Below, one piece after another: positions 16,254 through 35,403 of a stretch of DNA of 64,000 nucleotides. This stretch comes from Noviherbaspirillum sp. L7-7A (GTDB taxonomy: Bacteria > Pseudomonadota > Gammaproteobacteria > Burkholderiales > Burkholderiaceae_D). A program made the translations under genes and the position numbers. The stretch lies in NCBI RefSeq assembly GCF_019052805.1, contig NZ_JAHQRJ010000001.1, forward strand, positions 1,674,001-1,738,000, read 5' to 3'. The number at the start of each line of letters is the position of its first letter. Positions within the stretch are counted from its first letter, which is position 1. The notes under the pieces are model-generated. The model searched no databases and was not told the origin of the DNA. It saw only the letters and a program-made list of their open reading frames with translations.

Positions 16254-16289
16254 CGCTGTACAACGTTGAATAACAGTAGGACCACCATC

Positions 16290-18568: not shown

Positions 18569-18582
18569 TCTCAAGCGACTGC

Positions 18583-19290
18583 ATGGCAGACGGCAAGGGC
18601 AAGGTCTACCTGATCGGCGCCGGCCCCGGCGCCGCCGACCTGATCACGGTGCGCGGCGCGCGCATCCTGACGCAGGCCGACGCGGTGCTGCATGACGCGC
18701 TGGTGACAGCCGACATGCTGGCACTGTGCCCGCAGGCCGAGCTGATCCCGGTCGGCAAGCGCTCTGGCCAGCGCTCCACGGCCCAGGCCCTGATCAACCA
18801 GTTGCTGGTGGATGCCGCCGGCAGGCACCAGCTGGTGGTGCGCCTCAAGGGCGGGGATCCGATGCTGTTCGGCCGCGCCGACGAGGAATTGCGGGCGCTG
18901 GAAGACGCCGGCATCGAATACGAAATCATCCCTGGCATCACTGCCGCGCTGGCGGCCGCCGCATCGGCCCGCCGCCCCCTGACCCGCCGCGGTATCGCCC
19001 GCAGCGTCGCTCTGTTCACCTCGGCCACCGCGCCGGGCGAACCCGACATCGTCACCCTTCCCCACTGCGACACCCTGGTCCAATACATGGGCGGCCGCGA
19101 AGCCATGATCACCGCCCGCAAGCTGCTGGAACGCGGCCAGTCGCCGGATACGCCGGTGGTGGTGGTGGAGAATTGCAGCCTGGCTGATGAGCATGTGTTT
19201 CAGCTGCGGCTGGCTGATCTGGAGACGGGGCTGGCGGTATGCAGCGGTCCGGTGCTGGTGCTGATTGGCGAGGCCCTGGCGGCGCGCTGA
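18583..19290 (+). CDS. cobA: Uroporphyrinogen-III C-methyltransferase
   Basis: A 235-residue SAM-dependent methyltransferase making precorrin-2, the precursor of the siroheme required by the sulfite reductase upstream. Family motifs KVYLIGAGPGAADLITVRGA, VRLKGGDPMLFGR and PGITAALAAAASA are complete. It is the stand-alone SUMT type, without the dehydrogenase/ferrochelatase half of CysG. It follows cysN by 14 bases and is probably the last gene of the operon. Confidence 0.93.
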   Translation: MADGKGKVYLIGAGPGAADLITVRGARILTQADAVLHDALVTADMLALCPQAELIPVGKRSGQRSTAQALINQLLVDAAGRHQLVVRLKGGDPMLFGRADEELRALEDAGIEYEIIPGITAALAAAASARRPLTRRGIARSVALFTSATAPGEPDIVTLPHCDTLVQYMGGREAMITARKLLERGQSPDTPVVVVENCSLADEHVFQLRLADLETGLAVCSGPVLVLIGEALAAR

Positions 19291-19417
19291 CGGCAAATCA
19301 AACGGAGGGATGCCGCGCTAAGGCCTTGCTGCTTCAAACGTCATAGCCACATTACTTTTCGATCTACCCATCTTCGTCTCGGTTACCAAATTACTTCGGG
19401 CACGTGGTACGTGTTGC

Positions 19418-22141
19418 ATGGGTAACTGTGAACCTTTTTCATTCCTTTCGTTTCACACTGATAACCATGCGCTCAACAATAGCAGTTGTGGAAAGGACTG
19501 GCAAAAAATTATGGAAAAAGTAGATAACTCGAGAAAGTCAGTGTTTTGTGAATTAGATTATGCCTCGATAAAAAATTTGAATCAGAAGGCTACAGCATCA
19601 GAATCGGCGCTCAAGAACCGTCCCCTTACGAATGATGAAACCCAGCAGGCCAAGCTCAATCCGGGAGAAGCGGAACTCTGGCAAATTAATACGTTTTTTC
19701 AGAGAGAAAAAGAACTGCAACCCAATACAGAACTTGTTCTCCATGCAGAGAGAGTAAATTACAAACGGGCTGATGGAGCAAAGGTCGAGAAAATCAGATT
19801 TTATGCACGACCAAAATCGGAAAAGACAGAAAAGACAGAACAAGGATTTTTTGCGTTCTTTGATAATTTAATCAATCAAGGCAAGAAAAATCACAGCGAC
19901 CAAAATCAGGCCGACAACACGGTGGCTGACCTTGCCAAAGCGTATATGGACGCTACTGGTGTAACCGCTAGCCGTCCGACGCTTCATTCAAGCCTCGATC
20001 GCTTGATTCAACGCTCAGCTTCAGCAGCAACCGGATCTATAGCTCCTGATCTAATGGTTGTTGCCACTGCTATTGGAAATGAGAAATTTAAAAACCCGAC
20101 AGGGCTTGCGTTAGCGAAAAAGAGCGATTTCCGCGATGCGGTACTTGCAGAGCTCAACATTTCTCATAATGGATGCCCGATTGTCGCAGAACAGAGAATG
20201 TTGGAGGACCTGGCTTCCTTTGGATTTCAGAAGAAAGAGGTTATAGCCTTCCAACAGCTTGTCGATAACATCGTCAGCAACAAGAATACAGATGAAGAAG
20301 ATCTCTATGCAATCGGCACATTCCGGAAACAATGGATAGCATTCCATGACAGCAAAAGTCCGGCTGGGCAAAAATTCAGGGATTTTGTTTGGGACAATTC
20401 GACATGCCAAGTGTGGAACACGGTTGCTCACCGTCTCGCAGAACGCCCAGCACCAACTTTTGATTTCAATGCGCATGCTAAGGGCGATGTAATCATGGTC
20501 CCGGAAGTCGAGCATATTCAAACCTTGCCCGGCGAATCAACTTTACGGGAAATCGTCGACAAACTGCATTCCGATGCATCGAAAGAAAACCAGGCTCAAT
20601 TTACCAAGATAAATTCTGGCGGGGGAAAAGTACTTGTTGCAGCGAAAAGCTGCCATATTGATGAAATGCAATATCAACTGCGTACCACTCAGCATGCATA
20701 TCTCAAGCAGACCTACGAAAGTGTTTTTGGCCATAAGGCGGCTTCTGCCGAGACCATCATCCTGACGCCATTATTTAACTACACGGAAGACACGATAGAC
20801 GAATGCATCGACATCATGCTTGCGCCTGCAAAAAAGGAACGAAAACCAGGTGAAAATCTTAGGCTGGGAATTTTCACACCAGACCCAAGGATCAGGCTGA
20901 AATTCAACACTGCAGTGCATAAGCTCGCTGACGAAAAGAGAAAAAAGAAAAACGAAAGGCAAGCAGGTGCTAAAGGGAGTGCTCCTGACACGCATCAAGT
21001 CCAGGAAATGACAGAGCCAAAGACGCAGACTGCCAATTCGCCTGCCATACAGGAATGGGCTGTGGAAAACATGCGCCAAATGATTACGGAAGGTATTGAA
21101 ACTTTTAAACAGCATGCTGATTTTATGCAGTCTACTGCTGCCACAACGGTTACAACTTCTGTCGATTCTGCGACTGCTGCAGCCGCTGCAACTGTGGCAA
21201 CGTTTACAACACAAGGATATGAAGCCCTCAAAGGGTCCTTACTCACGCCTACACCCAAGCAAATTTTCCGAGAAGAACACGTAGACGCACATGTAATGCA
21301 TTCAACAATGCCACTGGTGAAGCCGGATACATTACCACCAGTCGCTGCAGCGGTGATCGATGCTAAAAAAGAAAGCGGCCTACTAACAGTAACGAATGCA
21401 CTTTCCGATCTTTTCAGCAGAGGCAGTGAGTACGACGCGGCAGTCGTTCTTGAAAGACTGCCTCGGATGCAATTAAAAAAGAAAAGGCGCGGAAAGGAAG
21501 TCCCAGTGGCCGACATCGCGGCAGCGTTCCCGCAGAAAGCGACATCATCTCACTCTGGGACACGTGCCGAAATAGGGATTGAATACGTCAAACTGCAGAA
21601 CGGCATTACGGGGCAGAATTGGCGGCCCGATGAAAAAACCGTGATTTTATTAAGCGATTCCGCCGATGAATGCGTACAGCCTGGCCAAACAGACATCAAG
21701 TCGGAACTCCAAACACTCTTGAAAAGGGACGACTTTTCCACGTTCTTCGGAACAGGATTGATATTCAAACCGCAGAGCTTGAAGAACGACAATTCCCACA
21801 ATCACAACCGATATTTCGCTTTCCCAGAGAAATTATCTGCCGACGCCACCGCAGAAATTGCTCAGAGATATAGGGAAATAATCACGCAGGCTGCGCGAAT
21901 GGAGATCCATAAGGTGGTTGTCACGCCATGCTTTGAGCTTCCTCGCATATTTATCCATCAAGACGCTTACGGGCGAGCAATTGTAACTATGCTCAAAACG
22001 CTAGACGAACTGAGTATGGAGTTCCCCAGCATCGACATAACACTGATCGGTCGTTCGGAAGCAGAACACGCGTTAATGCAAGATGCAATTGAGGCAATAA
22101 CGCAGAAAAAACAAGCGGAACGACTTAAGAAAAATTACTAA
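19418..22141 (+). CDS. Unknown 907-residue protein with two macro-domain-like segments
   Basis: No recognised full-length family. The gene is visibly AT-richer and uses AAA, ATT and GAA codons far more than its neighbours, which marks it as a likely transfer. Two segments look like repeats of one another and of the second half of a macro (ADP-ribose-binding) fold: about 350-505 (ETIILTPLFN... then LRLGIFTPDPRIRLKF) and about 720-900 (KVVVTPCFELPR... then SIDITLIGRSEAEHALM). The typical GDI/NAAN and GGG-V ligand loops are not evident. Between them lies a Lys-rich stretch and an Ala/Thr-rich helix (about 570-600). There is no signal peptide. The start could be the ATG at 19418 or the one at 19511; neither has a strong ribosome site. 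An effector or toxin-like role is speculation. Confidence 0.72.
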   Translation: MGNCEPFSFLSFHTDNHALNNSSCGKDWQKIMEKVDNSRKSVFCELDYASIKNLNQKATASESALKNRPLTNDETQQAKLNPGEAELWQINTFFQREKELQPNTELVLHAERVNYKRADGAKVEKIRFYARPKSEKTEKTEQGFFAFFDNLINQGKKNHSDQNQADNTVADLAKAYMDATGVTASRPTLHSSLDRLIQRSASAATGSIAPDLMVVATAIGNEKFKNPTGLALAKKSDFRDAVLAELNISHNGCPIVAEQRMLEDLASFGFQKKEVIAFQQLVDNIVSNKNTDEEDLYAIGTFRKQWIAFHDSKSPAGQKFRDFVWDNSTCQVWNTVAHRLAERPAPTFDFNAHAKGDVIMVPEVEHIQTLPGESTLREIVDKLHSDASKENQAQFTKINSGGGKVLVAAKSCHIDEMQYQLRTTQHAYLKQTYESVFGHKAASAETIILTPLFNYTEDTIDECIDIMLAPAKKERKPGENLRLGIFTPDPRIRLKFNTAVHKLADEKRKKKNERQAGAKGSAPDTHQVQEMTEPKTQTANSPAIQEWAVENMRQMITEGIETFKQHADFMQSTAATTVTTSVDSATAAAAATVATFTTQGYEALKGSLLTPTPKQIFREEHVDAHVMHSTMPLVKPDTLPPVAAAVIDAKKESGLLTVTNALSDLFSRGSEYDAAVVLERLPRMQLKKKRRGKEVPVADIAAAFPQKATSSHSGTRAEIGIEYVKLQNGITGQNWRPDEKTVILLSDSADECVQPGQTDIKSELQTLLKRDDFSTFFGTGLIFKPQSLKNDNSHNHNRYFAFPEKLSADATAEIAQRYREIITQAARMEIHKVVVTPCFELPRIFIHQDAYGRAIVTMLKTLDELSMEFPSIDITLIGRSEAEHALMQDAIEAITQKKQAERLKKNY

Positions 22142-22162
22142 TACCAAGTTCGCACATTCACA

Positions 22163-22197
22163 GGCAAGTAGTGCCGCCTCGCGGCGCCCTTGCTTTT
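22163..22197 (+). terminator. Rho-independent terminator after the 907-codon gene
   Basis: A two-part stem: GCAAG (22164-22168) with CTTGC (22089-type arm at 22189-22193), and GTGCCGC with GCGGCGC inside, followed by TTTT. It lies 22 bases after the stop. Confidence 0.7.
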
Positions 22198-22248
22198 GAT
22201 GCGAGATGGAACGGCTTGCTCCACCAAAACCATGTTCAAGTCGCAGCC

Positions 22249-22392
22249 CTACCAGGTACCACCCGTATACGACTTACCCAGCTGGGCCTCGTACACCTCA
22301 TCGTTCCTGCGGCGATAGCAATAGTGGGAGTAAGCGGCGCCTGTCAGCGCGGCCAGCCAAGCCGCGGCGCCCAGTGAAAAAATCAACATCAT
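22249..22392 (-). CDS. 47-residue putative membrane microprotein
   Basis: A short open frame beginning ATGATG at 22387-22392 and ending TAG at 22249-22251. The product MMLIFSLGAAAWLAALTGAA is a single hydrophobic helix followed by a Tyr/Arg-rich polar tail (YSHYCYRRRNDEVYEAQ). The form, one helix plus a charged cytoplasmic tail, and its codon usage match a real small membrane protein. The upstream CGGAACCC is only a weak ribosome site. It is GC-rich like the chromosome, unlike the adjacent gene. Function unknown. Confidence 0.5.
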   Translation of the reverse strand: MMLIFSLGAAAWLAALTGAAYSHYCYRRRNDEVYEAQLGKSYTGGTW

Positions 22393-22514
22393 GGGTTCCG
22401 TTTGTAATCAGCCTGCATTTTAATGCATGTAATCACCAAGCGTGCGGAGAGCGGCCCGGGATACTGCAAAATTTCCCTGGAAAAACAACTGCAGACGGGG
22501 GCAGGAACAGGGGG

Positions 22515-22607
22515 CGGAAGGAAATGGGAGTCGAACCCACCAGACCTGCATGGCAGGTCTCGCCGGATTTGAAGTCCGGGCGCGCCACCGGGATGCGTTG
22601 TCCTTCC
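22515..22607 (-). tRNA. selC: tRNA-Sec (anticodon UCA)
   Basis: A 93-base selenocysteine tRNA. Acceptor GGAAGGA pairs with TCCTTCC and is followed by a discriminator G; the anticodon stem-loop CCGGA-CTTCAAA-TCCGG has anticodon TCA at 22570-22572; the long variable arm is AGACCTGC-cat-GCAGGTCT; the T arm is TGGG-TTCGACT-CCCA. The extended acceptor and long variable arm are the marks of tRNA-Sec. CCA is not encoded (GCCC follows). It is co-oriented with selAB, 91 bases after selB. Confidence 0.96.
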
Positions 22608-22698
22608 GGTGCGGCAGGGTAACACGGCGCTTGCTGTCTTCGGAAGCCCTGCACCACGCATCGGGTGCATCAGTCAAGGCATCGGTATGAGATGCGGG

Positions 22699-24600
22699 TC
22701 AGCCCACAAGACGGCGTCGGCCTCCCGCATAACGTGTCAGGCCGATGCGGTCCAGATGCTCCAGCACCTCGATGGTCAGGTTGCGCCCGATGCCGGAGCG
22801 GTTCCTGAACTGCGCGGCGTCGAAATAGCCATCCGCTGAAGCCCCGGCCAGTTCGGTGGCGATCATGCCAAGCCCGCTCACCGTCTCAGGCAGGAAGAAG
22901 CGATTGGGCGCGACCTGTTCCAGGTAGCCCAGCCGGGCGATGCGCTCAAGCCGGGCCAGCAGCGCTTCACGCTCCATGCCCAGGCTTGCCGCAAGCTCGC
23001 CGACGATGGGCGGACGCAGCCCGCCGCCGCGCAGATGCGGCTCGATGCGCGCCAGCAGGTCGCGGTCCTCGCCCTGCAGTTGCGGCGCATGGGACGGCAG
23101 GCGCAGCAGCAGGCGCTCCCGCACCAGCATGCCCCGCTCCAGCATCGAGCGCACCGCTGCTCGCGACACCGTCGGCGTGGCCTGGGCGCGCAATGCCTGA
23201 ACGATGGCGGCCTCGGCCATGCCGAGATGATCGGGATGCGCTGCATGCCAGTCCGCCAGCACGGCCGGCAGGCGGTCCAGCAGCGCCTGCCATTGGGCGA
23301 TGTCGAGAGCGCGCATGCCGCCGGCTTCCTGTACGCGCTGCGTCGGGACTTGCTGCAACAGGCCTGCCTGCTCGTCCGGCGACAGGTTGCGACTGCGGAT
23401 GAAGTCGTCCAGGGTTATGCCCTGTGGCGCGGCCTGCAGCAGCGCGGCCAGCGCCTGCGCGGTGTCGTCGCAGTCCTGCGCACGCAAACGCGCCAGGCGC
23501 GCCGGCCTAGGCACGCGCTGGCTGCCGGCGCCCGGATCGATCACGATGCCGCCGCCAATCACCCGCTGGCTGGCCTGCGAGCGCAAAATGAAGCGGTCGC
23601 CATACGCTGCAGCTAACGGCCGCGATGGCACCAGCTGCGCATAGGCCTGCTGGCCCTGCCCGATCGCCCTGCCCTCCAGCACCGCCACATGGGCACTCTG
23701 CTCGGCCGCGCCCAGGTGCAGCTGCACCGGCGTCCAGTGCGCCAACGGCGCATCGGCCTGCGCCAGCATGCGCAGCCGCACGTCGATGCGCGCAGTCGGC
23801 GCGTGGGCGTCAACGGCGACGATCCAGTCGCCCCGCGACACCTGCTCGCGCCGGATATCGCCAGCCAGGTTCAGTGCGCAACGCATGCCGGACAGCGCCC
23901 GCGTCACCGGCGCGCCGTGCGCCTGCACCGCCCGCACCCGCAGCGACATGCCGGCGGGCGACAGCACCACCTCATCGCCGGGTGCCAGGCTGCCCGAGAC
24001 CACCGTGCCGGTCGCCACCAGGCCGGCGCCGGGCACCGTGAAGCTGCGGTCCACCGCCAGGCGGAAGTTGCCGCGCGGTGCCGCCGCTTCCGCCTGGCGC
24101 GTCCGTTGTGTCCGTGCTAGGTGGGCGCGCAGCGCCTCCACCCCGACGCCATCGATGCCGCAGACCGGAAACAGCGGCGCATCGCGCAGCCCCGTCGGCG
24201 CCAGCCGCTTCCTGATGTCGGCTTCGACCCCGGCCAGGCGCGACGCGTCCACCCGGTCGGTCTTGGTCAGGGCCACGGCGCCGTCACGCATGCCCAGCAG
24301 GTCCAGCACCGCCAGATGCTCCACCGTCTGCGGCATCACGCCGTCGTCGGCCGCCACCACCAGCAGCGCAAAGTCCACCGCCGCCACGCCGGCCAGCATG
24401 TTGCGCGCAAAGCGCTCGTGGCCCGGCACATCGACAAAACCGACCGGCTGCCCGTTGCCCAGATCGGCATGGGCGAAGCCGATGTCGATCGACATGCCGC
24501 GCTGCTTCTCCTCCGGCAGGCGGTCGGTGTCGATGCCGGTCAGCAGCCGGATCAGCGTGGTCTTGCCATGGTCGACATGGCCGGCGGTGGCGACGATCAT
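22699..24600 (-). CDS. selB: Selenocysteine-specific elongation factor SelB
   Basis: A 633-residue GTPase that carries Sec-tRNA-Sec to the ribosome and binds the SECIS hairpin. The N-terminal EF-Tu-like part shows P-loop [17 protein letters not shown], switch [17 protein letters not shown] and the variant G4 motif LTKTDRVD typical of SelB. The C-terminal third (about 370-633) consists of winged-helix domains that bind mRNA ([49 protein letters not shown]). Its start overlaps the selA stop by four bases (ATGA), so the two are co-translated. Confidence 0.96.
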
Positions 24601-25964
24601 GGCGGCGCCAGCGCGGCCAGCAGGCCGGCTTCATCGTCCAGGCAGCGCAGGTCCAGCAGCAGCGCCTTGTCCGCGATGCGCCCGATCACGGGCAGCGGCA
24701 GGCCGCGCAGCGCGGCCGCCATCTGCTGCGCACTCTGGCCCGCCCGTGGCCGCAGCCGCAACGCAAAGCTGGGCAGCAGGTCCACCGGCAGCGAGCCGCT
24801 GCCGATCTGGCTCATTACCGGCGCCACATCGACCGCCGCGCGCTGCCCAGCCCACTGCGCCAATGCCGGCAAGAGACGCAGCGCCTGTGCCTCGATCTCC
24901 GCTGCCGGCCGCGACAGCAGGCGCAACGCCGGCACCTTCTCCGCCAGCCGCTCCGGGTCGGCATACAGCCGCAGCACCGCGGCCAGCGCGGCAATGGTCA
25001 GCTTGTCGCAGCGCAGCGCCCGCTTCATCGGATTCTTCCTGATGCGCGCCACCAGGTCGGCGCGGCCGACGATGATGCCGGCCTGCGGGCCGCCCAGCAG
25101 CTTGTCGCCGCTGAAGGTGACGATGCCCGCGCCCTGGCGCAGCGTGTCGGCCGGCGTTGGCTCGGGCGGCAGTCCGTAACGGGTCAGGTCGGTCAGGGTG
25201 CCGCTGCCCAGGTCCACCACCAGGGGCAGTGCATGGCGCGCGGCCAGTTCGCCCAGTTCTGCCGGGTCGGCCTCGGCGGTGAAGCCTTCGATGCGGTAAT
25301 TGCTGGTATGGGCCTTCATCAACAGGCCGGTGGACGGGCCGATGGCGTCGGCATAGTCGTGCAGATGGGTGCGGTTGGTGGTGCCGACCTCGCGCAGGCG
25401 GCAGCCGGCGCGGGCCATGATGTCGGGCAGCCGGAAGGCGCCGCCGATCTCGATGAGTTCGCCGCGCGAGACGATGCATTCGCGCCGCGCCCCCAGGCTG
25501 TTCAGGGCCAGCAGCACGGCGGCGGCATTGTTGTTGACCACGGTGGCGGCCTCGGCGCCGGTCAGCCGGCACAGCCATTCCTCGAGGTGGCTGTCGCGCT
25601 CGCCGCGCCTGCCGGTGGCCAGGTCGTATTCCAGGTTGGAGGCGCCCCTGGCCACCTGCACCATCGCGTCGATGGCTTCCTGCGGCAGGGGTGCGCGGCC
25701 GAGATTGGTGTGCAGCACCGTGCCGGTCAGGTTCAGCACCGGCCGCAGGCTGGGCGCGAGCAGCCGCCGCAGCCGCGCGTCGACGGCGGCGCCCAGTGCT
25801 TCGTCATCGGGCACCATGCCGGCAGCGCGGCACGCCGCCAGTTCGTGGCGCACCACGTCCAGCACCAGAGCGCGGCCATGCGCCTCGATCAGCGCGGCCA
25901 TCAGCGGCCAGCGCAGCATGCTGTCCACCGATGGCAGCCGCGCCATGTCCGGCCGGGCGCTCAT
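24597..25964 (-). CDS. selA: L-seryl-tRNA(Sec) selenium transferase SelA
   Basis: A 455-residue PLP enzyme that converts seryl-tRNA-Sec to selenocysteyl-tRNA-Sec using selenophosphate. [20 protein letters not shown] and [15 protein letters not shown] are family segments; the PLP lysine is in [13 protein letters not shown]. It forms a decamer in the cytoplasm. It is the first gene of the selAB pair and lies 192 bases downstream of the UGSC selenoprotein stop on the same strand. selD, the selenophosphate synthetase gene, is not in the window. Confidence 0.96.
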
Positions 25965-26156
25965 GCCGCGACCGCGCTTTCCCGCAGGCGTCCAGGAGCC
26001 TGCGCGGCAGAAGGAGCGGCGGCTGCAACGCGCGGGAAGACGGTGCGGCCTGCCATCACCGCCGTCGCCCAGGGATCCACCCTGGGCTTGTCGGCGCTAC
26101 CAAACCGCTCTCGTTCTTCCCACGTTTCGCTTCTCCGCCTTCTGCCGCGCAGGGTG

Positions 26157-26684
26157 CTATGGCTTGCTGGTAAGCGCGGCGACGATGGCGCCGACCGCCT
26201 CGTCGGCCAGCGCGCGCATCTCCTCGTCGCTGCGGTCCTGGATCGGATGCCGCACGAACACCATCGCCGGGTCGAAACCCAGGCTTTTCGACTGCAGCGC
26301 AGCCGCCTCGACAAACTCTGTGGATGCAATGCCTACTCCGGGTATGCCCCGGCCTTCGAGATCCGCGATGTCATGCATACAGCACGACGTGCAGGATCCT
26401 CAGTCGGCCAGGCCTTCGACGACGAACTGGCATTCGCCGGCGATCTGCTGCTTCAGCGCCGTCGGCGCGACCCGGGTGAAGGTCGGCTTCCTGTAGCGCT
26501 TCACCGCGATGCCCATCGCGGCAAGCCGTTCGTCGACGCGGTCGAGGAACACGTTGCCGCGCGCCTTGGATATATCGAGCAGGCCGACGGTCGCGCCGGC
26601 CAGCGACGCCGGGCGCGCCAGCCGCGCCCGCGCCGATGGCGCGCGCTCGGCGGTCGGGTCCAGCAGGAGGATTTGTTGCGTCAT
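26157..26684 (-). CDS. UGSC-family selenoprotein with in-frame UGA
   Basis: A 175-residue protein if the UGA at 26400-26402 is read as selenocysteine (Sec95). Read as a stop, the gene falls into a 94-codon piece and a separate 73-codon ORF. Both halves are in the same frame with no other stop, and the junction reads ...EGLAD-U-GSCTSCCMHDIADLE, which is the UGSC motif of the UGSC (seleno)protein family, known from sequence surveys. N-terminal VGLLDISKARGNVFLDRVDE and C-terminal VFVRHPIQDRSDEEMR are family-like. Sec-Gly-Ser-Cys next to further Cys residues suggests a redox active site; no reaction is established as far as I know. Its start overlaps the stop of the thioredoxin-like gene (ATGA). 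selA, selB and selC follow directly. Confidence 0.93.
26358..26402 (-). promoter_or_regulatory. Candidate bacterial SECIS hairpin
   Basis: Immediately after the UGA, GAGGATCC (26401-26394) can pair with GGATCTC (26364-26358) with one bulged G, and TGCA (26393-26390) with TGCA (26377-26374), leaving a 12-base apical loop. Bacterial SECIS elements lie directly 3' of the UGA inside the coding region and bind SelB. The exact fold was found by eye and alternatives exist (GCAC-GTC-GTGC). Confidence 0.5.
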
Positions 26685-28117
26685 GTTGCGATCTCCCTGG
26701 TAACGGGGGTGGAGCCGGTCGGGCCGGAAGCGGCCCAGCCGGCGATGACAGCGGAAAACAGGCCGGCGCTGCCGCCGGCCCGCACGATCAACAGGCCGCC
26801 GGGGCGGAACTTGGGAACCTGCTTGCCGGCCAGCGCCGCCGGCAAGCCTTCGGCAATGCCGCCGGCGCCGGCCAGCATGTCGTCGGCATCGAAGGTCAGC
26901 AAGGCGGTCAGTTCATCGCGCAGACGCGCCTTGGACCAGCCGGCCTCGATGAACACCCGGCTGTGCTCGGGCGACACCACCAGCAGCGCGTCGCCGGCCA
27001 TGGCCAGCTTGGGATGGTCGACCGCGCGCAGGCATAGCGCGAAGCTCCTGGCCAGCGACTCGGGCGTACGCGATTTCTGGTCGACGATGCCCTGCACGCC
27101 TTCGCCGGCAAACAGGGTAACGGTGGAAGCATGGGCGCCAAAGCCGCGTTCCACGGCAAGCGACTCCCAGCCGATGTCCTCGGCCTCGGCGAAGCAGAAG
27201 CTGTACTTGCCGGGATTGCCCAGCGTGGCGCGGTCGACTTCGCCCGGCCGGCCGCCGCCGACGTTGCGGATCACCAGTTGCAGCGCGCGGCCGATGGTGG
27301 CATTGGCGCGGTTGCCCTGCCCCAGCGCATTGACGCCCGAATTCATGCCGACCGCCTTGCCTGCGGGCCCGTTGACGACCACCACCGGCCCGGCAAACAT
27401 CGTGGTGCACAGCACGCCGTGCATGCCGAATTCATCCACCAGCGCCGCCTCCACCGCCGCCAGCACGATGGGCAGGTACTCCGGCTTGCAGCCGGCCATC
27501 ACCGCATTGATCGCCACCTTTTCCACGGTGCAGGGCGCCAGGTCGGGCGGCGCCAGGCCAAGCACTTCATCCGGCTTGCGGCTGGTTCCCTGCAGCATGC
27601 GCAGCACCCGTTCGCGGGTCGGCGGCACCACGGGCAGGCCGTCGGTCCAGCCGCGCTCGTAGCAGGCTTCCATCACGTCTTCCTCTTCGCCCAGCGCAAT
27701 GGTGCGCGAGACGAACTGGATGTCGCCATAGCGCAGCGCAAGCTGTTCCGGCATGCCGGGGTCCAGGGTTTTCGAGCCGCAGCCGGGGCGTATCGCGGGC
27801 AGGCCTTCGCCCAGGCTCGGCAGGCCGCTGATGCGGCGCCAGTCGTCGCGATGCCAGCCATAGGTGCGCTCGACTTCACGCCCGCCTTCCACCCGGATCA
27901 GGGTGGGCACGACTTCGATGTTGAGCAGCCAGGAATGTTCCAGCTCGCGGTCGTCCACCACCTCCGCGGCGCCGCCGGCATAGGCCGGGTCGTCCTGCAC
28001 ATAGACCTTCAGCGGCAGATCGGCGGCCGCCAGGCGCGATACCAGCGGCTCCACCAGCGCACAGGTCGGGCAGGCGCGCTTTGCGATCAGCAACAAACCA
28101 TCGGGCATCTGGCGCAT
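26681..28117 (-). CDS. Thioredoxin-fold fusion protein linked to the UGSC selenoprotein
   Basis: A 478-residue protein in two parts. Residues about 1-110 are thioredoxin-like: LLIAKRACPTCALVEPLV holds the CPTC redox pair, then VVPTLIRVEGG with the cis-proline context. The remaining 360 residues form a separate domain with GWTDGLPVVPPTRERVLRML, APCTVEKVAINAVMAGCKPEYLPIVLAA and VVVVNGPAGKAVGMNSG; I do not know a function for it. The start ATG at 28117 follows AAAGGA. The stop overlaps the start of the selenoprotein, so the two are translated together and are probably a redox pair: the CxxC could reduce the Sec-Cys centre. That coupling is inference. Confidence 0.8.
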   Translation of the reverse strand: MRQMPDGLLLIAKRACPTCALVEPLVSRLAAADLPLKVYVQDDPAYAGGAAEVVDDRELEHSWLLNIEVVPTLIRVEGGREVERTYGWHRDDWRRISGLPSLGEGLPAIRPGCGSKTLDPGMPEQLALRYGDIQFVSRTIALGEEEDVMEACYERGWTDGLPVVPPTRERVLRMLQGTSRKPDEVLGLAPPDLAPCTVEKVAINAVMAGCKPEYLPIVLAAVEAALVDEFGMHGVLCTTMFAGPVVVVNGPAGKAVGMNSGVNALGQGNRANATIGRALQLVIRNVGGGRPGEVDRATLGNPGKYSFCFAEAEDIGWESLAVERGFGAHASTVTLFAGEGVQGIVDQKSRTPESLARSFALCLRAVDHPKLAMAGDALLVVSPEHSRVFIEAGWSKARLRDELTALLTFDADDMLAGAGGIAEGLPAALAGKQVPKFRPGGLLIVRAGGSAGLFSAVIAGWAASGPTGSTPVTREIAT

Positions 28118-28631: not shown

Positions 28632-28916
28632 ATGAACAACGTTTTCAAACAGCTTCTGTCCTCACAAGCACTGTCCCTCCCATCTGCCACCATGCAGACT
28701 GCCCAGTACATTGCCGATACCGATCTGGCAGGCATCACCGGCGGCCAGGAGCACGGCGAAATTCAATTCAGATTCGGCTTGCACTTTGGCGCTGAGCACA
28801 AGGCGCTGCCATTCTCGGCCGAGCTGCAGCAGTTGCCGGTCGGCGCGGTTGACCCGAATACCGTTCCGTGGGCGGAACTGAAGCCTGCTGTAAAGAAGCT
28901 TGCCAGCGCTGACTGA
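28632..28916 (+). CDS. Small protein with a double-glycine leader-like motif
   Basis: A 94-residue protein. Residues about 26-38 read IADTDLAGITGGQ, the pattern of the double-glycine leaders of bacteriocins and other ribosomal peptides (acidic-DLxxITGG). The part after GG is mixed, with two Gly and several Phe/His residues, and no Cys or Ser/Thr cluster that would signal a lantibiotic or microcin core. The ATG at 28632 follows a weak ribosome site. No C39 peptidase or exporter is nearby, so it would be an orphan precursor. It could equally be a small protein that ends a helix in GG by chance. Confidence 0.55.
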   Translation: MNNVFKQLLSSQALSLPSATMQTAQYIADTDLAGITGGQEHGEIQFRFGLHFGAEHKALPFSAELQQLPVGAVDPNTVPWAELKPAVKKLASAD

Positions 28917-29015: not shown

Positions 29016-30635
29016 TCAGGCCTTTGCCGCCCTCTCCCGCAGTTCCCGCTTGAGCAGCTTGCCATTGGCATTGCGCGGCAGGGGCGTCTCCATCAGCGTG
29101 ACATCCTCCGGCACCTTGTAGTCGGCCAGGCGGGCCGCGCAGTGCGTTCGCACCGCGTCGGCATCGGTCACGCCGCCGGGCGCATACACGAAGGCATGCA
29201 CCCGCTCGCCCAGCACCGGGCAGGGCTTGCCCACCACTGCCGCCTCCAGCACGCCGGGCAGCGCCATCAGCACATTCTCCACCTCGGCCGAATAGATCTT
29301 GTAGCCGCCACGGTTCAACATGTCCTTCTTGCGGTCGAAGATGCGCACGAAGCCGTTCCCGTCGATCGAGCCGATGTCGCCGGAATGCCAGTAGCCGGCG
29401 GTAAAGCCGGCGGCGGTCGCTTCCGGATTGTCCCAGTAGCCGCGCACCACCATCGGGCCGCCTATCCACAACTCGCCGCTCGCGCCCGCCGGCACCTCTT
29501 TGCCGTCGTCGTCGACCACGATCACCGAGGCGCAGGGCAGTGCCACGCCAACCGAGTCATTGCCGGCAACGCTGGTGCCGGGCGGCACGGCCGTGGTAGG
29601 CGATGTGGTTTCGGTCGCGCCGTAGGCATTCACCAGGGCCAGTCCCGGCAACTGCCGCGCCATGGCGTCCACCGTGGACGGCGGCATCGGCGCGCCGCCG
29701 AAGCCGCCGATGCGCCAGGCCGACAGGTCGTGCGCTTCCATGCGGCCGCGCAGCAGGCACAGGTTGTACATTGCCGGCACCATCAGGGTATAGGTCATGC
29801 GCTCCTTCGCCGCGACGGCGACGAACTCCTCGGCCTGGAAGGCGGAAAAGATCAGCATGGCGCCGCCCACCCGCAGCATGGCGGCGATCACGGCGATCAG
29901 GCCGGTGACATGGCTGGCCGGTACCGCCAGCCCGGCGCAATCATGCTGGTCCAGCCCGAAGCAGGCCTGGTAGTGCATGGCCGAATGCACGATGTTCAGG
30001 TGGCTCAGCATTGCGCCCTTGGGATTGCCGGTGGTGCCCGAGGTGTAGAGCAGGACCGCGGTGTCTTCCTCCCGCACTGGCGCGGCCTCGCTCGCCGGCA
30101 TGAAGCCGCGACCAAGCGCAGACAGCGACAGCACACTGGCGTCGCTTACATCATCGACGCGGATGCGCAGACGCAGGCCGGGCGCCTCGGCCGCGTCAGG
30201 CAGCACTGCCGCCAGCGCGGCGTCGAACACGATGGCCTTCGCGTTACTTTGCCTCAGCATATAGGCCAGGCCAGGCCGCTGCTCGCGTATGCCCACCGGC
30301 ACCGCGATTGCGCCCAGGCGCTGTATCGCCAGCAGCACCGATACGAACTCGGGCCGGTTGCCGATGAACATCACGACCCGGTCGCCACGTTCGACGCCAT
30401 GGCTGGCCAGGCCGGCGGCAATGCGACCGACTTCGCCATCCAGCTGCCTATAACTCAGGCTGGCGCCGTTGAACAGCACGGCCCGCCGGTCGGCATGGCT
30501 GGCCAGCGCCTCATCGAACATCGCATGAAAGGAAGACGGCCGGTCGGCGAAGCAGCGCACGATGCGGTCGCCGAAATGGGCCTCATGCCGTATTGCCGGC
30601 ACGCTGAACCCGGCCCAGTGTTCGGGCCCGCTCAT
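29016..30635 (-). CDS. AMP-dependent acyl/aryl-CoA ligase
   Basis: A 539-residue ANL-superfamily ligase that activates a carboxylic acid to its CoA thioester. The P-loop LLYTSGTTGNPKGAMLSHLN, NAYGATETTSPT and the hinge/GYWHSGDIG...FDRKKDML motifs are all present, and the C-terminal catalytic lysine lies in NANGKLLKREL. The start ATG (30633-30635) overlaps the stop of the LivF gene, so it is the last gene of the transport operon. This suggests that the imported acid is trapped as a CoA ester. Substrate is unknown: fatty and aromatic acids are both possible. Confidence 0.92.
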   Translation of the reverse strand: MSGPEHWAGFSVPAIRHEAHFGDRIVRCFADRPSSFHAMFDEALASHADRRAVLFNGASLSYRQLDGEVGRIAAGLASHGVERGDRVVMFIGNRPEFVSVLLAIQRLGAIAVPVGIREQRPGLAYMLRQSNAKAIVFDAALAAVLPDAAEAPGLRLRIRVDDVSDASVLSLSALGRGFMPASEAAPVREEDTAVLLYTSGTTGNPKGAMLSHLNIVHSAMHYQACFGLDQHDCAGLAVPASHVTGLIAVIAAMLRVGGAMLIFSAFQAEEFVAVAAKERMTYTLMVPAMYNLCLLRGRMEAHDLSAWRIGGFGGAPMPPSTVDAMARQLPGLALVNAYGATETTSPTTAVPPGTSVAGNDSVGVALPCASVIVVDDDGKEVPAGASGELWIGGPMVVRGYWDNPEATAAGFTAGYWHSGDIGSIDGNGFVRIFDRKKDMLNRGGYKIYSAEVENVLMALPGVLEAAVVGKPCPVLGERVHAFVYAPGGVTDADAVRTHCAARLADYKVPEDVTLMETPLPRNANGKLLKRELRERAAKA

Positions 30636-31285
30636 GCCGCCTCCCTCGCCACGTTGGCGCCGCGCTCGATCACGACTTCCGCGTCCAGCAGCGAGCTCGA
30701 ATGGTTCAGGTCCGACTGCGAGATCAGCACCGACAACTGGCTGCCGCGCAGGCTGCCGATGACTTCGGAAAGCCGCTGCGACAGGGCCGGCGCCACGCCT
30801 TCGAAGGGCTCGTCCAGCAGCAACAGGCGGGTGCCGACGGCCAGCGCCCGGCCCAGCGCCACCAGCTTCTGCTGGCCGCCGGAAAGCAGCAGCGCGCGCC
30901 GCTCGCGCATGTCCTTCATCTCGGGCAGCACGCTGTAGACGAACTCCAGGCGCTCCGCTTCCTTCAGGGCTTTCGAGGCCCACACCGGCACCAGGATGTT
31001 TTCCTCCACCGTCAGCTCCGGCACCAGGCCGCGGTCCTCTGGCATGTAGCCTATGCCCAGGCCGGCGCGCAAATGGCGCGGCATGCCGCCCAAGTCGCGG
31101 CCATCGAGGGTGATGCCGCCGCTGCGCAGCGACAGATGGCCCATGATGGAGCGCATGAGCGAGGTCTTGCCGGCGCCGTTGCGGCCGATCAGGCCCACCA
31201 TCTGGCCGGCCGGCACGTCGATGGAAAAGCCGCGCAGGATTTCCACGGCTTCGATGGCGACATTGATTCCCTTTACCTGCAGCAT
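30632..31285 (-). CDS. livF: ABC transporter ATP-binding protein LivF-like
   Basis: A 217-residue nucleotide-binding subunit of a branched-chain-type importer. Walker A GRNGAGKTSLMRSI, signature LLSGGQQKLVALGRALA and Walker B LLLLDEPFEG are complete. Its length matches LivF (about 230), slightly short. It lies 12 bases downstream of LivG. The assignment to LivF follows from order and size; the operon probably carries an organic acid rather than leucine. Confidence 0.9.
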   Translation of the reverse strand: MLQVKGINVAIEAVEILRGFSIDVPAGQMVGLIGRNGAGKTSLMRSIMGHLSLRSGGITLDGRDLGGMPRHLRAGLGIGYMPEDRGLVPELTVEENILVPVWASKALKEAERLEFVYSVLPEMKDMRERRALLLSGGQQKLVALGRALAVGTRLLLLDEPFEGVAPALSQRLSEVIGSLRGSQLSVLISQSDLNHSSSLLDAEVVIERGANVAREAA

Positions 31286-31297
31286 ATTCCCTGTCTC

Positions 31298-32068
31298 CTA
31301 GCGCAAGGTGCCCGTGACATAGCGCCGCACCTCGTCATTGGCCAGCGCATCGGCGGGCGCGGCGTTGGCGATGATGCGGCCGCTGTAGAAGGCCACCACC
31401 CGGCTCGCATAGCGCTCCACGATATCCATGTCATGCTCGACGAACAGCACCGTCATCGCCTCTTCCTCCAGCGCCTGCATCACGGTGTCCATCATCGGAA
31501 ACTTTTCTTCCACGCTGACGCCGCTGGTCGGCTCGTCCAGCAGCAGCAGGCGCGGCTGCTCGGTCAGGGCCATGGCGATGTCGAGCAGCTTGCGCACGCC
31601 GCCAGGCAGTTCCGAAACCCGCCGTGCGGACTGCGCCGCCAGGCCGAAGCGCCGCAGCAGCGCCTCGGCGCGTTCGATTGCATCGGCCCGGTGCGCCGGC
31701 CTCAGGAAGGACAGGCTGCGGCCATGGCAGGCCGTGGCCACCAGCATGTTGTCCAGCACCGTCAGGCCCGCGCAGAGCTGCGGTATCTGGAACGAGCGCG
31801 CCACGCCCAAGTGGGTGATGGCGCGCGGCGCCATGCCGGTGATGGCGCGGCCATCGAGCATGATGGTGCCGGCGTCTGGCCGGATATAGCCGGTGATCAT
31901 GTTGACGAAGGTCGTCTTGCCGGCGCCATTGCTGCCGATCAGGCTGACCCGCTCGCCATGCCCCACGTCAAGCGACATGTCGCTGGCGGCGACCACCGAG
32001 CCGAAGCGCTTCTGCAGGCCGGCTGCCTGCAGCACCGGCGCATTGCGGGTATCGGGAACCGCGCTCAT
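31298..32068 (-). CDS. livG: ABC transporter ATP-binding protein LivG-like
   Basis: A 256-residue second ATPase of the same importer. Walker A SLIGSNGAGKTTFVNMITG, Walker B LLLLDEPTSG and switch histidine FVEHDMDIVER. The signature region ELPGGVRKLLDIAMAL departs from canonical LSGGQ (P for S), a variation seen in some LivG proteins. The start ATG (32066-32068) overlaps the LivM stop by four bases. Confidence 0.9.
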   Translation of the reverse strand: MSAVPDTRNAPVLQAAGLQKRFGSVVAASDMSLDVGHGERVSLIGSNGAGKTTFVNMITGYIRPDAGTIMLDGRAITGMAPRAITHLGVARSFQIPQLCAGLTVLDNMLVATACHGRSLSFLRPAHRADAIERAEALLRRFGLAAQSARRVSELPGGVRKLLDIAMALTEQPRLLLLDEPTSGVSVEEKFPMMDTVMQALEEEAMTVLFVEHDMDIVERYASRVVAFYSGRIIANAAPADALANDEVRRYVTGTLR

Positions 32069-33075
32069 TGCCTGCCTCCGCTGCCGGTCCTGATCTTGCC
32101 GCCGGCCCAGAGCGAGCCGATGCCGCCGGGCAGGAAGCGGATTGCCAGCAGCAGGAAGATACCCAGCGCCAGTTGCCAGGTGTTGGGGAAGTACAGGCTG
32201 GAAAACGAGCGCACGATTTCCAGCAGCGTGGAGGCGATGAATACCGCCAGCACGCTGTGGTAGCCGGCCAGGATGGCGACGAACACGAATTCGCCGGAAC
32301 TGGTCCAGTAGCTGAAGTTGGGATCGATATGGCCCAGCGACATCACAGTCAGCGCGCCGCCGACGCCGCCGAGGAAGGCGGCGATCACGAAGTTGGCGGC
32401 CACGGCCTGGCGTACCGAACCGCCCAGGTATTCCACCCGCAGCTCGTTCTCCCGCACTGCCAGCGATACCAGGCCGCGGGTCGAATCGAAATAGACGCGC
32501 GCCGCCAGCGCCAGCAGGCCCGACAGCGTGACCGTCACGGCGTACAGCAGGAAGCCGACATGGGCATCCGGCAGCGCCTGGCCCAGCAGCGTCGGCCGGC
32601 TCATGTTGAATCCGTCGGAGCCGCCCAGCGCATCGGTCTTGACCAGCACGCCATACAGCACCATGGACAGGGCCAGCGTCAGCATCGCGAAGAAGATGCC
32701 GCGGTAGCCGGCAATCAGGCGCGCCACCAGCAGCGCCGCCAGCGCCGCCACCACGCCGCCGGCCAGCGCCATGCCCAGCGCATCGGTCATGCCGAGCCGG
32801 TTGAACAGCAGCGCCGCGGTATAGCCGCCCAGGGCGAACACCATGCCCTGGCCGAAGGACACCACTCCGCAGCGCATCAGCACCACGATGCCCAGCGACA
32901 CCAGGCCGTGCGAGGCGGCCATGGTCAGCAGAAAGGTCAGCCACTTGGGCAGCAGCGCGCCGGCGCCGACCAGCACGACGATCAGCGCCAGGCCGGCCAG
33001 GAGCGAGCGCGGCCGCGCGGCGCGCTGGTGCGCTGCCGGCGCCGGCTTGTCGAGAGTTGCAGAAGTCGCTTGCAT
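32065..33075 (-). CDS. livM: Branched-chain-type ABC permease LivM-like
   Basis: A 336-residue inner-membrane permease with about nine hydrophobic helices and the LivM signature region including LAVRENELRVEYLGGS, an EAA-like loop that contacts the ATPases. It is separated from LivH by a single base. Its C-terminal extension is short and polar. Confidence 0.9.
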   Translation of the reverse strand: MQATSATLDKPAPAAHQRAARPRSLLAGLALIVVLVGAGALLPKWLTFLLTMAASHGLVSLGIVVLMRCGVVSFGQGMVFALGGYTAALLFNRLGMTDALGMALAGGVVAALAALLVARLIAGYRGIFFAMLTLALSMVLYGVLVKTDALGGSDGFNMSRPTLLGQALPDAHVGFLLYAVTVTLSGLLALAARVYFDSTRGLVSLAVRENELRVEYLGGSVRQAVAANFVIAAFLGGVGGALTVMSLGHIDPNFSYWTSSGEFVFVAILAGYHSVLAVFIASTLLEIVRSFSSLYFPNTWQLALGIFLLLAIRFLPGGIGSLWAGGKIRTGSGGRQ

Positions 33076-33076
33076 G

Positions 33077-33973
33077 TCAGATCTTCCTTGCCTGTATGCG
33101 CTGGAACAGGCCTTCCGGCTTGAACATCAGCACCACCGCCATCACGATGTACACCGAGAACAGCTCCGCCACCGGCGCGGTATGCACCGCCAGGGAGCGC
33201 GCCAGGCCGACGATGAGCGCGCCGATCGCCGCGCCCGGTATGCTGCCCAGACCGCCGATGATCACCACCGCAAACGACACGATGATCACGCCCACGCTGA
33301 CGCCCGGCTGCACCGAGATCATCGGCGCGGTCAGGGCCCCGCCGAGCGCGGCCAGGAAGATGCCCACGCCGAAGGCCAGCATGTAGACCCGCGAGACGTT
33401 TACGCCCATGCTGGAGGCCACTTCCTCGCTGTGGATCACGGCCAGCACCAGCTTGCCCTGGCGGGTGCGGTTCAGGCCCCACCAGACCGCCACGCCGACC
33501 ACGACGGCAACGGCCACCAGCATGAAGTCATAGCCGACATAGGACTGCTCGCCGATGTCGACATTGCCGAACAGCGCGTAAGGGTCGGTGACGTAATACG
33601 GGTTGACGCCCCAGATCAGCTTGGTCACGTCTTCCAGGATCAGGAACAGCGCATAGGTGACCAGCACCAGCAGCACTTCATCGCGGCCATAGAAAGGCCG
33701 CAGCAGGCTGCGCTCGCACAGCGGCGCCACCAGTGCCGCCACCGCCACGGCGGCCAGCAGCATGGCTACCAGCGACCATGAAGGCGCGAACTGCATGGCG
33801 CCGAACCAGGAAACGAAGCTGGCGGCGGCATAGGCGCCGACCGCGTAAAAGCTGCCGTGCGCGATGTTCAGGATCTTGAGCACGCCGAACACCAGCGTCA
33901 GGCCCAGCGCAACGATGAACAGCCATGATGCGTAGGTAATGCCGTCGATCAGGATCGTGATCAACTGGTTCAT
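33077..33973 (-). CDS. livH: Branched-chain-type ABC permease LivH-like
   Basis: A 298-residue permease partner of LivM, with about eight helices. MNQLITILIDGITYASWLF and VLKILNIAHGSFYAVGAY are typical of LivH, and GGLGSIPGAAIGALIVGL is the conserved cytoplasmic coupling loop. Start ATG is at 33971-33973, with AAGGAGGA upstream, a strong ribosome site. Confidence 0.92.
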   Translation of the reverse strand: MNQLITILIDGITYASWLFIVALGLTLVFGVLKILNIAHGSFYAVGAYAAASFVSWFGAMQFAPSWSLVAMLLAAVAVAALVAPLCERSLLRPFYGRDEVLLVLVTYALFLILEDVTKLIWGVNPYYVTDPYALFGNVDIGEQSYVGYDFMLVAVAVVVGVAVWWGLNRTRQGKLVLAVIHSEEVASSMGVNVSRVYMLAFGVGIFLAALGGALTAPMISVQPGVSVGVIIVSFAVVIIGGLGSIPGAAIGALIVGLARSLAVHTAPVAELFSVYIVMAVVLMFKPEGLFQRIQARKI

Positions 33974-34062
33974 GCTTGTCCTCCTTGGCGGAATGGAGCA
34001 TGGCCGCCGGCCTCGTGCAGGTAAAACTGCAGGCGCCGGCGGCCGCGGTCAGGCGGATCGCC

Positions 34063-35403
34063 CTAGTCGCACTTGGCGCCGGGGAAGTTGGCCTTGATCC
34101 AGTCTTCCGACTTCATGTTGGCCGGCGGATTGACGCATTCGGCCGGGAAGCGCTGGATGTCCTGCAGCGTGACCATCTTCCTGGCTGCGTCATACTTGGT
34201 GCGGCCGATCGCGGTTTCCTGGATCGCCTGATGGCCGTCGCCCAGCGCCATGCGGATGCGTCCGCCCGGCGCTTGCCACTCCGAGCCCTTGAGCGCCTCG
34301 GCCAGCTGTTCCGGCGTGGGCTTCTTGCCGCCGTTGGCCGCCATCGCCTTCTCGGCCGCCAGCTTCAGGCCCATCAGCGCCTGCGCCATGCGGTACGGCG
34401 CCTGCACCGGATAGACGTTGTAGGCCTTCTGGTAGACGCTCCACCACCAGTCGTTCAAGTCCGACTTCGGCGCCATCAGGCCATAGGCGCCGCGCGCGCC
34501 AAGGATCACGCCATCGGGCATCTTGTCGCCCAGGCCCTGCAGCACATGGTCGGCCGCCGACAGCACGCCCTGCGACTTCTTGAACAGGCCGCGCGGTCCG
34601 GACTGCAGGATGAAGCTCTGCAGGTCGCCGCCCCAGAAGCTGGAATGCAGCAGGTCGGCCGGCTTGCTCATCAACTGCGAGATCTCGGTGCCGTACTGGC
34701 CGGAGCCGAATTTGGGCAGCAGGTCGGACTGCACCTTGGCATCGGGATAGAGCCTTTCCATCGCCAGCACGAAGTCCTTGCGGGAATCCTGGCCCCAGGC
34801 ATAGTCCTGGTTGAACAGGTTCATGGTGCCGACCTTCACGTTGCGGCTCTTCAGGTAGCGCGCCAGCGCCACGTTGTCCATGGTGCCGTGGGACGCCGTG
34901 CGGAACACATAGTTGTACTTGTTTTCCTCGAAGATGCGTGGCGTGCCGCAGTCGTAGAGGATCAGGAAGCGCTTCATTTCCTCGGCCACCGGCGCCACCG
35001 CCAGGCAGTCGCCGGAACCGACATAGCCCACCACGGCATCGACCTTTTCACGGTCATACAGGTTGCGCAGTTCCTGCACCTGCTTGGTGGCGCCGCCGTT
35101 CTCGTCGACATACACCGCCTCGATCTTCATGCCGCCGAAGCCGACCCTGTTATAGGGCGCCGGCGCCTCGCCCTTGTTGAAGGCGTCGATCAGCACCTTG
35201 CCGCCATTAACGGCCGGCACGCCGAAGCTTTCCGCCGCCTGGCCCGAGAGAAAGCTGACCACGCCGATGCGGAACACTTCCTGCGCCTGCGCCGGCGCCA
35301 TCGCCGCCAGGGCGGTGGCGACCGCCACTGCCGCGCTCATGCGCCATCCACGTCGCGCCTGTATCGTTGCGCCTGCCTGCTGCCTGCTTCTGCTTTTTTT
35401 CAT
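34063..35403 (-). CDS. ABC transporter substrate-binding protein of the Liv operon
   Basis: A 446-residue periplasmic receptor, longer than ordinary LivK (about 370). A basic N-terminus and hydrophobic core precede a cleavage site after AQAQ near residue 41; an in-frame ATG at codon 22 could be the true start. The mature protein begins EVFRIGVVSFLSGQAAES and belongs to the Peripla_BP_6 type, of the kind found with aromatic or acyl compound transporters. Cysteines in GSGDC and LYDCGTPR may form a disulfide. It precedes the permease genes by 89 bases, and its high expression is likely. Confidence 0.9.
   Translation of the reverse strand: MKKSRSRQQAGATIQARRGWRMSAAVAVATALAAMAPAQAQEVFRIGVVSFLSGQAAESFGVPAVNGGKVLIDAFNKGEAPAPYNRVGFGGMKIEAVYVDENGGATKQVQELRNLYDREKVDAVVGYVGSGDCLAVAPVAEEMKRFLILYDCGTPRIFEENKYNYVFRTASHGTMDNVALARYLKSRNVKVGTMNLFNQDYAWGQDSRKDFVLAMERLYPDAKVQSDLLPKFGSGQYGTEISQLMSKPADLLHSSFWGGDLQSFILQSGPRGLFKKSQGVLSAADHVLQGLGDKMPDGVILGARGAYGLMAPKSDLNDWWWSVYQKAYNVYPVQAPYRMAQALMGLKLAAEKAMAANGGKKPTPEQLAEALKGSEWQAPGGRIRMALGDGHQAIQETAIGRTKYDAARKMVTLQDIQRFPAECVNPPANMKSEDWIKANFPGAKCD

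Follow-up and report, generated by a model that had tools for sequence, protein, structure and literature searches.

Two open reading frames (ORFs) on either side of a UGA codon raise the question of whether they are halves of one selenoprotein gene and, if so, which enzyme the neighbouring genes for selenocysteine (Sec) incorporation serve. They lie in a stretch of 64,000 nucleotides from Noviherbaspirillum sp. L7-7A (hereafter the window; positions 1674001-1738000 of contig C1). Both ORFs, one of 94 amino acids (26400-26684) and one of 73 (26157-26378), are on the minus strand and have a common frame. The TGA at 26402-26400 is followed by GGA TCC TGC, so that the motif U-G-S-C occupies residues 95-98 of a joined product of 175 residues, which ends at a TAG and has a calculated mass of ~18.6 kDa. 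An earlier note on this DNA had joined the 94-codon and 73-codon ORFs into one gene and had read Gly-Ser-Cys after the TGA, leaving the strand unmentioned; both readings are borne out. Judged from sequence and conservation, the stretch from 26684 to 26157 is almost certainly one Sec-coding gene of the UGSC family, and we found that it belongs to a conserved cassette with a partner gene and selA, selB and selC.

The joined protein matches both models of the family, NF041046 (NCBIfam UGSC_fam; 151 bits against a cut-off of 125, profile positions 2-147 of 147) and PF24696 (Pfam UGSC; 144.5 bits against a cut-off of 25, positions 2-171 of 172). In our genome collection, the UGA at 26400-26402, which encodes U95, is present in 80/80 related UGSC loci, which were found with search patterns that left out the Sec codon. 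Further loci from the genome search, which are partly duplicates of the 80, include Cys in place of Sec (L006, L005/L008) and U-G-A-C variants (L024, L027, L029); the earlier note had expected homologues with U or Cys at residue 95. Among 34 aligned sequences (the window plus 33 taken from the 80 loci, with Sec entered as C), both halves of the protein are conserved, and position 95, C98, C101, H104, D105 and further residues on either side are invariant. Near relatives differ mainly at third codon positions, 3' of the UGA just as 5' of it: from L031, the window differs by 5, 3 and 14 substitutions at the first, second and third positions after the UGA and by 9, 7 and 25 before it, and from L058 by 0, 2 and 5 after and 2, 1 and 9 before.

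These counts bear on the simplest alternative, namely that the UGA is a true stop or a decayed codon and that the two halves are separate and not one protein. Standard ORF finding does split the gene in two, as the earlier note had warned for any caller that treats UGA as a stop, and this speaks for a stop. The UGA and the downstream half are kept in all 80 loci, however, where homologues ending before the UGA or with a broken frame might have been expected, and the third-position bias continues after the UGA; on these two grounds, we rejected a stop codon or pseudogene. The conserved hairpin described next and the presence of the sel genes point the same way, leaving this alternative with next to no probability.

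The hairpin lies just 3' of the UGA and resembles a selenocysteine insertion sequence (SECIS). Its sequence is GUCGUGC-UGUAU-GCAUGAC (26370-26388, minus strand). With the U of the UGA as base 1, its 7-bp stem and 5-nt loop span bases 15-33 in the window and in most relatives. Among 70 distinct sequences, 97.3% of 490 stem cells are paired versus a shuffle mean of 94.3%. The top pair changes from C-G to G-C on both sides in 8 of the 70, which is a compensatory change, and bases 18 and 30 form a G-U pair in 60 sequences and a G-C pair in 10. RNAalifold, unaided, predicts 6 of the 7 stem pairs, and G23 and T24 of the loop, which we take to be similar to the loop of the E. coli fdhF SECIS, are invariant. 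In addition, synonymous-codon entropy relative to usage is 0.34 for six codons from +3 to +10 versus 0.93 for 72 codons elsewhere (Mann-Whitney P 0.0025), while codons -5 and -1, just 5' of the UGA, are likewise unusually fixed. The folding energy relative to synonymous randomisation is only moderate (mean z -1.2 for the 70 sequences, of which 67 are below 0; -1.06 for the window). Two observations weigh against the hairpin: the outermost stem pair fails in 11 of the 70 sequences, and the count of pairs with double changes was matched by 42 of 500 shuffles. At the gathering threshold, Rfam found nothing but tRNA-Sec in the whole window, with no match to a SECIS family.

Upstream of the UGSC gene and on the same strand, a gene at 26681-28117 ends in an ATGA whose 4 nt it shares with the start of UGSC. 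Its 478-residue product, which we call P3, consists of an N-terminal thioredoxin domain with a CPTC motif and an unnamed domain of ~350 residues. P3 itself has no Pfam or NCBIfam match; some of its relatives have weak thioredoxin-type matches, and the N-terminus of the P3 model (mean predicted local distance difference test score, pLDDT, of 87) matches thioredoxins. The large domain was found in 79/80 UGSC loci, and the exception (L084) begins inside UGSC at a contig end. The N-terminal CxxC in these 79 is CPTC in 72 and CETC in 6, and was not found in L106, where the thioredoxin match lies in another frame. In L097, P3 ends ~3.9 kb before UGSC. Fusions also occur, as P3 runs into UGSC without a stop in L039 and the UGSC frame continues into the P3 domain in L010 and L025. 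Across 294 genomes of the bacterial family to which the window belongs, UGSC was above cut-off in 11 and the P3 profile matched in 12 (E up to 1e-20); all 11 have both, and the twelfth P3 match (G413) covers profile positions 1-105 only. We therefore regard UGSC and P3 as very probably a functional pair. The module drawn in the earlier note is incomplete, as this adjoining gene was overlooked and the unit is larger.

Downstream of UGSC and on the same strand lie the Sec genes that the earlier note had named, and TIGRFAM, ARAGORN and Rfam confirm them. selA, encoding L-seryl-tRNA(Sec) selenium transferase, is at 24597-25964 (TIGR00474, 581 bits). The start of selB (22699-24600; TIGR00475, 389 bits), which encodes the Sec-specific elongation factor, overlaps the selA stop by 4 nt, and selC, the tRNA-Sec with anticodon UCA, follows at 22516-22607 (ARAGORN; Rfam RF01852, 72 bits). 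The genome has one above-cut-off match to selD, at 345571-346497 of the same contig, so that selA, selB, selC and selD are all present. The earlier note had spoken of a self-contained or mobile module; the selA-selB-selC linkage stands, but the set is not self-contained because selD is ~1.35 Mb away from the window, and mobility is unsupported. selD is above cut-off in 29/30 UGSC genomes examined, with weaker matches only in the remaining one (G696).

The same arrangement recurs in other genomes. selA is downstream of UGSC on the same strand in 50/80 loci and selB in 52/80. Full classification was possible for 57 loci: selA, selB and tRNA-Sec are all present in 39, selB and tRNA-Sec in two, selB alone in two, and none of the three in 14. 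Among the 39 complete loci, L035, L058 and L059 have less than 5.2 kb downstream and were counted because the tRNA was seen, and without them the figure is 36/54; in L059, selB comes before selA. The 14 loci without sel genes are mostly from more distant relatives, yet L065 is among them. Besides the partner, selA and selB, no cluster of ORFs is shared by more than 9 of 81 compared loci. The order partner-UGSC-selA-selB-selC is a conserved cassette, which recurs in Burkholderiales, Pseudomonadales and Ectothiorhodospiraceae. Separately, we observed selB directly after UGSC with no selA found adjacent in six loci (L053, L057, L076, L083, L089 and L094), although the contig of L089 ends too early to tell whether selA adjoins. 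We interpret loci with UGSC and then selB but no adjacent selA as partial loss of the cassette.

To place this cassette among other Sec-decoding systems, we considered SelA phylogeny. A quick phylogeny of 73 SelA proteins (L206, which has an in-frame TAA and is too short, was left out) requires one label change for the 49 UGSC-linked rows. Support is 98 for a group of 50, which contains these 49 and L213, and only 52 for the exact 49. The other usable SelA rows come from genomes sampled across the phylum; fdhE or fdoI lies upstream of selA in 15 of these 24, and the rows linked to formate dehydrogenase do not form one group (6 changes). UGSC or P3 was found upstream of selA in 0/25 phylum loci, within a stretch of ~1.5 kb in most of them and of 0.4 kb in L192. 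In this tree, the UGSC-linked SelA group stands apart from the SelA linked to formate dehydrogenase.

UGSC is above cut-off in 5/398 phylum genomes as well as in the 11/294 family genomes, a patchy distribution that fits old transfers or repeated loss alike. A tree of partner and UGSC together (77 rows) mostly follows taxonomy with few odd placements, among them L069, perhaps a mislabelled bin, which carries the label Rhodoferax and groups with gammaproteobacteria. A search of the window for another copy of the 3' end of tRNA-Sec found none. Recent mobility thus left no apparent sign in the tree or at the tRNA-Sec 3' end; integrases were not searched for.

Formate dehydrogenase is the obvious competing client for the Sec machinery. 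A UGA-bearing formate dehydrogenase (TIGR01553) was found in 2/30 UGSC genomes (G691 and G700), and three further genomes (G714, G715 and G716) have TIGR01591 matches that contain a UGA and fall slightly short of the cut-off. Divided by clade, a UGA-bearing formate dehydrogenase is present in 2/24 genomes of the cassette-holding clade and in 3/6 others. The UGSC locus of G700 (L053) has no adjacent selA or tRNA-Sec. SelD carries its own UGA in G712, G714, G715 and G716. In the genome of the window, no homologue of the formate dehydrogenase families has a UGA and none lies in the window, so that no Sec formate dehydrogenase stands beside selA and selB here. UGSC as the sole selenoprotein of this genome is not proven, because the families searched were formate dehydrogenase and component B of glycine reductase (GRDB).

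What, then, might the pair do? It is probable that the Sec cassette is centred on one two-protein enzyme, with UGSC as the small selenol subunit and P3, encoded by the overlapping gene, as the large subunit. In the scheme that we propose, SelA, SelB and tRNA-Sec, together with selenophosphate from the distant selD, would decode the UGSC UGA as Sec, guided by the hairpin just 3' of it. In the UGSC model (pLDDT 91), an alpha/beta fold, residue 95 is flanked by a strand and a helix; Sec is predicted to follow the beta strand and to open the helix, near the conserved Cys98 and Cys101. The selenolate may attack a substrate bound by the large domain of P3, Cys98 (with Cys101) may resolve the adduct or a selenenyl-sulfide, and P3 may re-reduce it through its CPTC thioredoxin domain. 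Overall, this would be a reductive step like that of glycine reductase component B in the catabolism of an imported small organic molecule. The computations show the Sec-coding gene, its hairpin, the near-obligate pairing, the cassette and its lineage; complex formation, each catalytic step and the substrate are what we infer here.

A different function for the same parts would be redox defence, with UGSC as a thioredoxin-like Sec thiol-disulfide oxidoreductase or peroxidase and P3 merely as its reductant. The CxxC near the P3 N-terminus in 78/79 loci is what such an enzyme would call for. The UGSC model, in contrast, gave weak Foldseek matches to SsuE, flavodoxins, TIR and other alpha/beta proteins (best E 1.1e-4, template modelling score, TM, 0.43); a thioredoxin fold was dropped for UGSC, as no thioredoxin is among the 50 PDB matches listed. 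Distant pairs are mostly without the thioredoxin domain (15/17 P3 matches start at profile position 132 or later), several of them are in catabolic-looking clusters, up to 11 UGSC matches occur in one genome, and a role of P3 as reductant leaves its large domain unexplained. We consider redox defence unlikely.

The two-protein selenol enzyme has a candidate relative in GRDB (PF07355). PF07355 matched neither the window protein nor any of the 34 members of the alignment, so that membership in GRDB is rejected. In an hhalign comparison, UGSC and GRDB-like profiles aligned over 113 columns with the Sec columns in register (score 29.7, P 0.0013, probability 18%), while the highest score among 150 column shuffles was 19.4, and the reversed profile and P3 scored 16.2 and 17.6, respectively. 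For this comparison, fused tails were trimmed and L005 was left out; with tails included, the score was 39.4. Taken together, the fold, the profile similarity and the catabolic neighbours suggest that UGSC-P3 is a selenol enzyme which is fed by thioredoxin and distantly resembles component B of glycine reductase, and a GrdB-like mechanism is a serious possibility that falls short of being probable. Several points count against it. The hhalign probability is low in every set-up (6%, 10%, 44% and 18%), and the two families could align through a common alpha/beta pattern without kinship, because P3 is the sole unrelated real family compared. GRDB-like genes are present in only 2/30 UGSC genomes. 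Outside its thioredoxin domain, the P3 model has weak PDB matches only; the top Foldseek match, class I fumarase, was dropped as a fold for P3 (TM 0.2, root-mean-square deviation >16). Finally, the genes upstream of P3 differ between loci, which means that no one substrate is indicated.

The GRDB-like genes themselves provided some further observations. In the phylum of G712, 25 loci (L155-L179) were fetched from 40 matches listed, and the match ends at a TGA in 25/25, within VPV-U-PxC or a close variant (U-P-L-D in three); the continuation past the TGA is conserved, and standard ORF calls would cut these genes. Three proteobacterial GRDB-like proteins have Cys at the Sec position. In two Ectothiorhodospiraceae loci, the P3-UGSC-selA-selB-selC cassette is directly preceded by a GRDB-like Sec gene (L037, 7273-7959; L067, 27-701), which counts in favour of the GrdB-like reading; no such gene was found in the window or the other loci scanned.

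Genes that may be associated with the pair in the window lie further upstream, all on the minus strand. They comprise an AMP-binding acyl-CoA ligase (29016-30635), a branched-chain-type ATP-binding cassette (ABC) transporter with a Peripla_BP_6 receptor that completes the block 29016-35403, and a GntR/FCD regulator (35424-36239) that has a homologue upstream in L050. The membrane and ATPase parts of the transporter were named from sequence and not by family scan. In L050, P3 directly follows a homologous set of transporter genes; in the window, a gap of ~900 bp holding a small opposite-strand ORF separates the transporter/ligase block from P3. The nearest called ORF upstream of P3 is on the other strand in 40/70 loci, as judged with a crude gene caller. 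Since the upstream genes differ and are often on the opposite strand, the link to the transporter and ligase is weak. Distant UGSC-P3 pairs lie near TctC receptors, CoA-transferase III, AtuA and a hydroxyisobutyrate-dehydrogenase-like protein, as seen in a Pfam scan of 10 chosen proteins among many ORFs.

These neighbours also bear on a third proposal, that UGSC-P3 acts on toxic metal or organometal species, as was put forward for other recent Sec operons. Two such operons, SAO (Sec-assisted organometallic) and Tso, are mentioned in the accessible text of PMC13188914, and both UGSC and P3 have several conserved Cys. None of the 17 neighbour proteins scanned with Pfam (10 distant, 7 from the window) belongs to a metal-resistance or efflux family, however, and this proposal is quite improbable.

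Three other features were observed. The 11 UGSC matches noted above are all in G428 (L010, L020, L022-L030, L141-L148), which is a bin with 6% contamination, and several of them adjoin TctC receptors. A 94-residue ORF on the plus strand (28632-28916), divergent from the P3 gene, has a possible double-glycine leader, ITGG, and no Pfam or NCBIfam match. On the 3' side of tRNA-Sec, an ORF of 907 residues (19418-22141, plus strand) has no Pfam, NCBIfam or PADLOC match; GC content is ~45-51% in 19000-22500 versus 64-73% in most of 15000-28000, and this ORF is possibly a recently gained gene.

UGSC was a known family of unknown function; here it is linked to one defined partner and, in numerous proteobacteria with named type strains among them, to Sec machinery of its own. 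With a Sec formate dehydrogenase in only 2/24 genomes of the clade, deletion of selA and deletion of UGSC would ask about the same question, provided that no further selenoprotein is present, and the function of UGSC thereby becomes testable. A bolder proposal, which we think less likely than not, is that UGSC-P3 represents a second class of reductive selenol enzymes, akin to glycine reductase B and equipped with its own thioredoxin, in free-living proteobacteria and multiplied for different substrates in some genomes, and that a whole selA-selB-selC lineage has survived through the Sec requirement of UGSC-P3 and not through that of formate dehydrogenase.

The cassette can be compared with four known systems. 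The gene agrees with the UGSC family (NF041046, PF24696) in curated cut-offs, motif and Sec position. This family was described in 2008, including a fusion to a domain named 'Unknown_1' (PMC2398784), and was listed in later surveys (PMC5029168, PMC13188914, PMC9312934, PMC5330540); the accessible portions of this literature give the motif, counts and one fusion and do not describe the linkage to selA-selB-selC or the near-obligate partner. Literature searches, mostly outside subscription journals, yielded no published description of a cassette of UGSC, a thioredoxin-bearing partner and selABC. In the published fusion, as here, UGSC is joined to a conserved domain of unknown function, and 'Unknown_1' is most likely the P3 domain as far as the available text allows; the two are mostly separate genes here, with an added thioredoxin domain. 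GRDB, or component B of glycine, sarcosine and betaine reductase, shares Sec in U-x-x-C and the profile similarity with Sec in register, whereas UGSC lacks a PF07355 match, has U-G-S-C and has another partner protein. The closest parallel in organisation is the fdhA-selA-selB-selC cassette. According to PMC1794560, all alpha- and betaproteobacteria and Pseudomonadales known at the time to decode Sec carried selA-selB-selC beside fdhA, their sole selenoprotein gene, in keeping with the earlier note, which held that sel genes usually accompany formate dehydrogenase. That note had called the present organisation uncommon; it is not a one-off, as it recurs in three groups, and it limits the conclusion of 2006 that fdhA accompanies Sec decoding in these bacteria. 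Both cassettes combine an operon with one adjoining selenoprotein gene while selD evolves apart; in the one described here, UGSC and P3 replace formate dehydrogenase, and SelA falls into a separate group.
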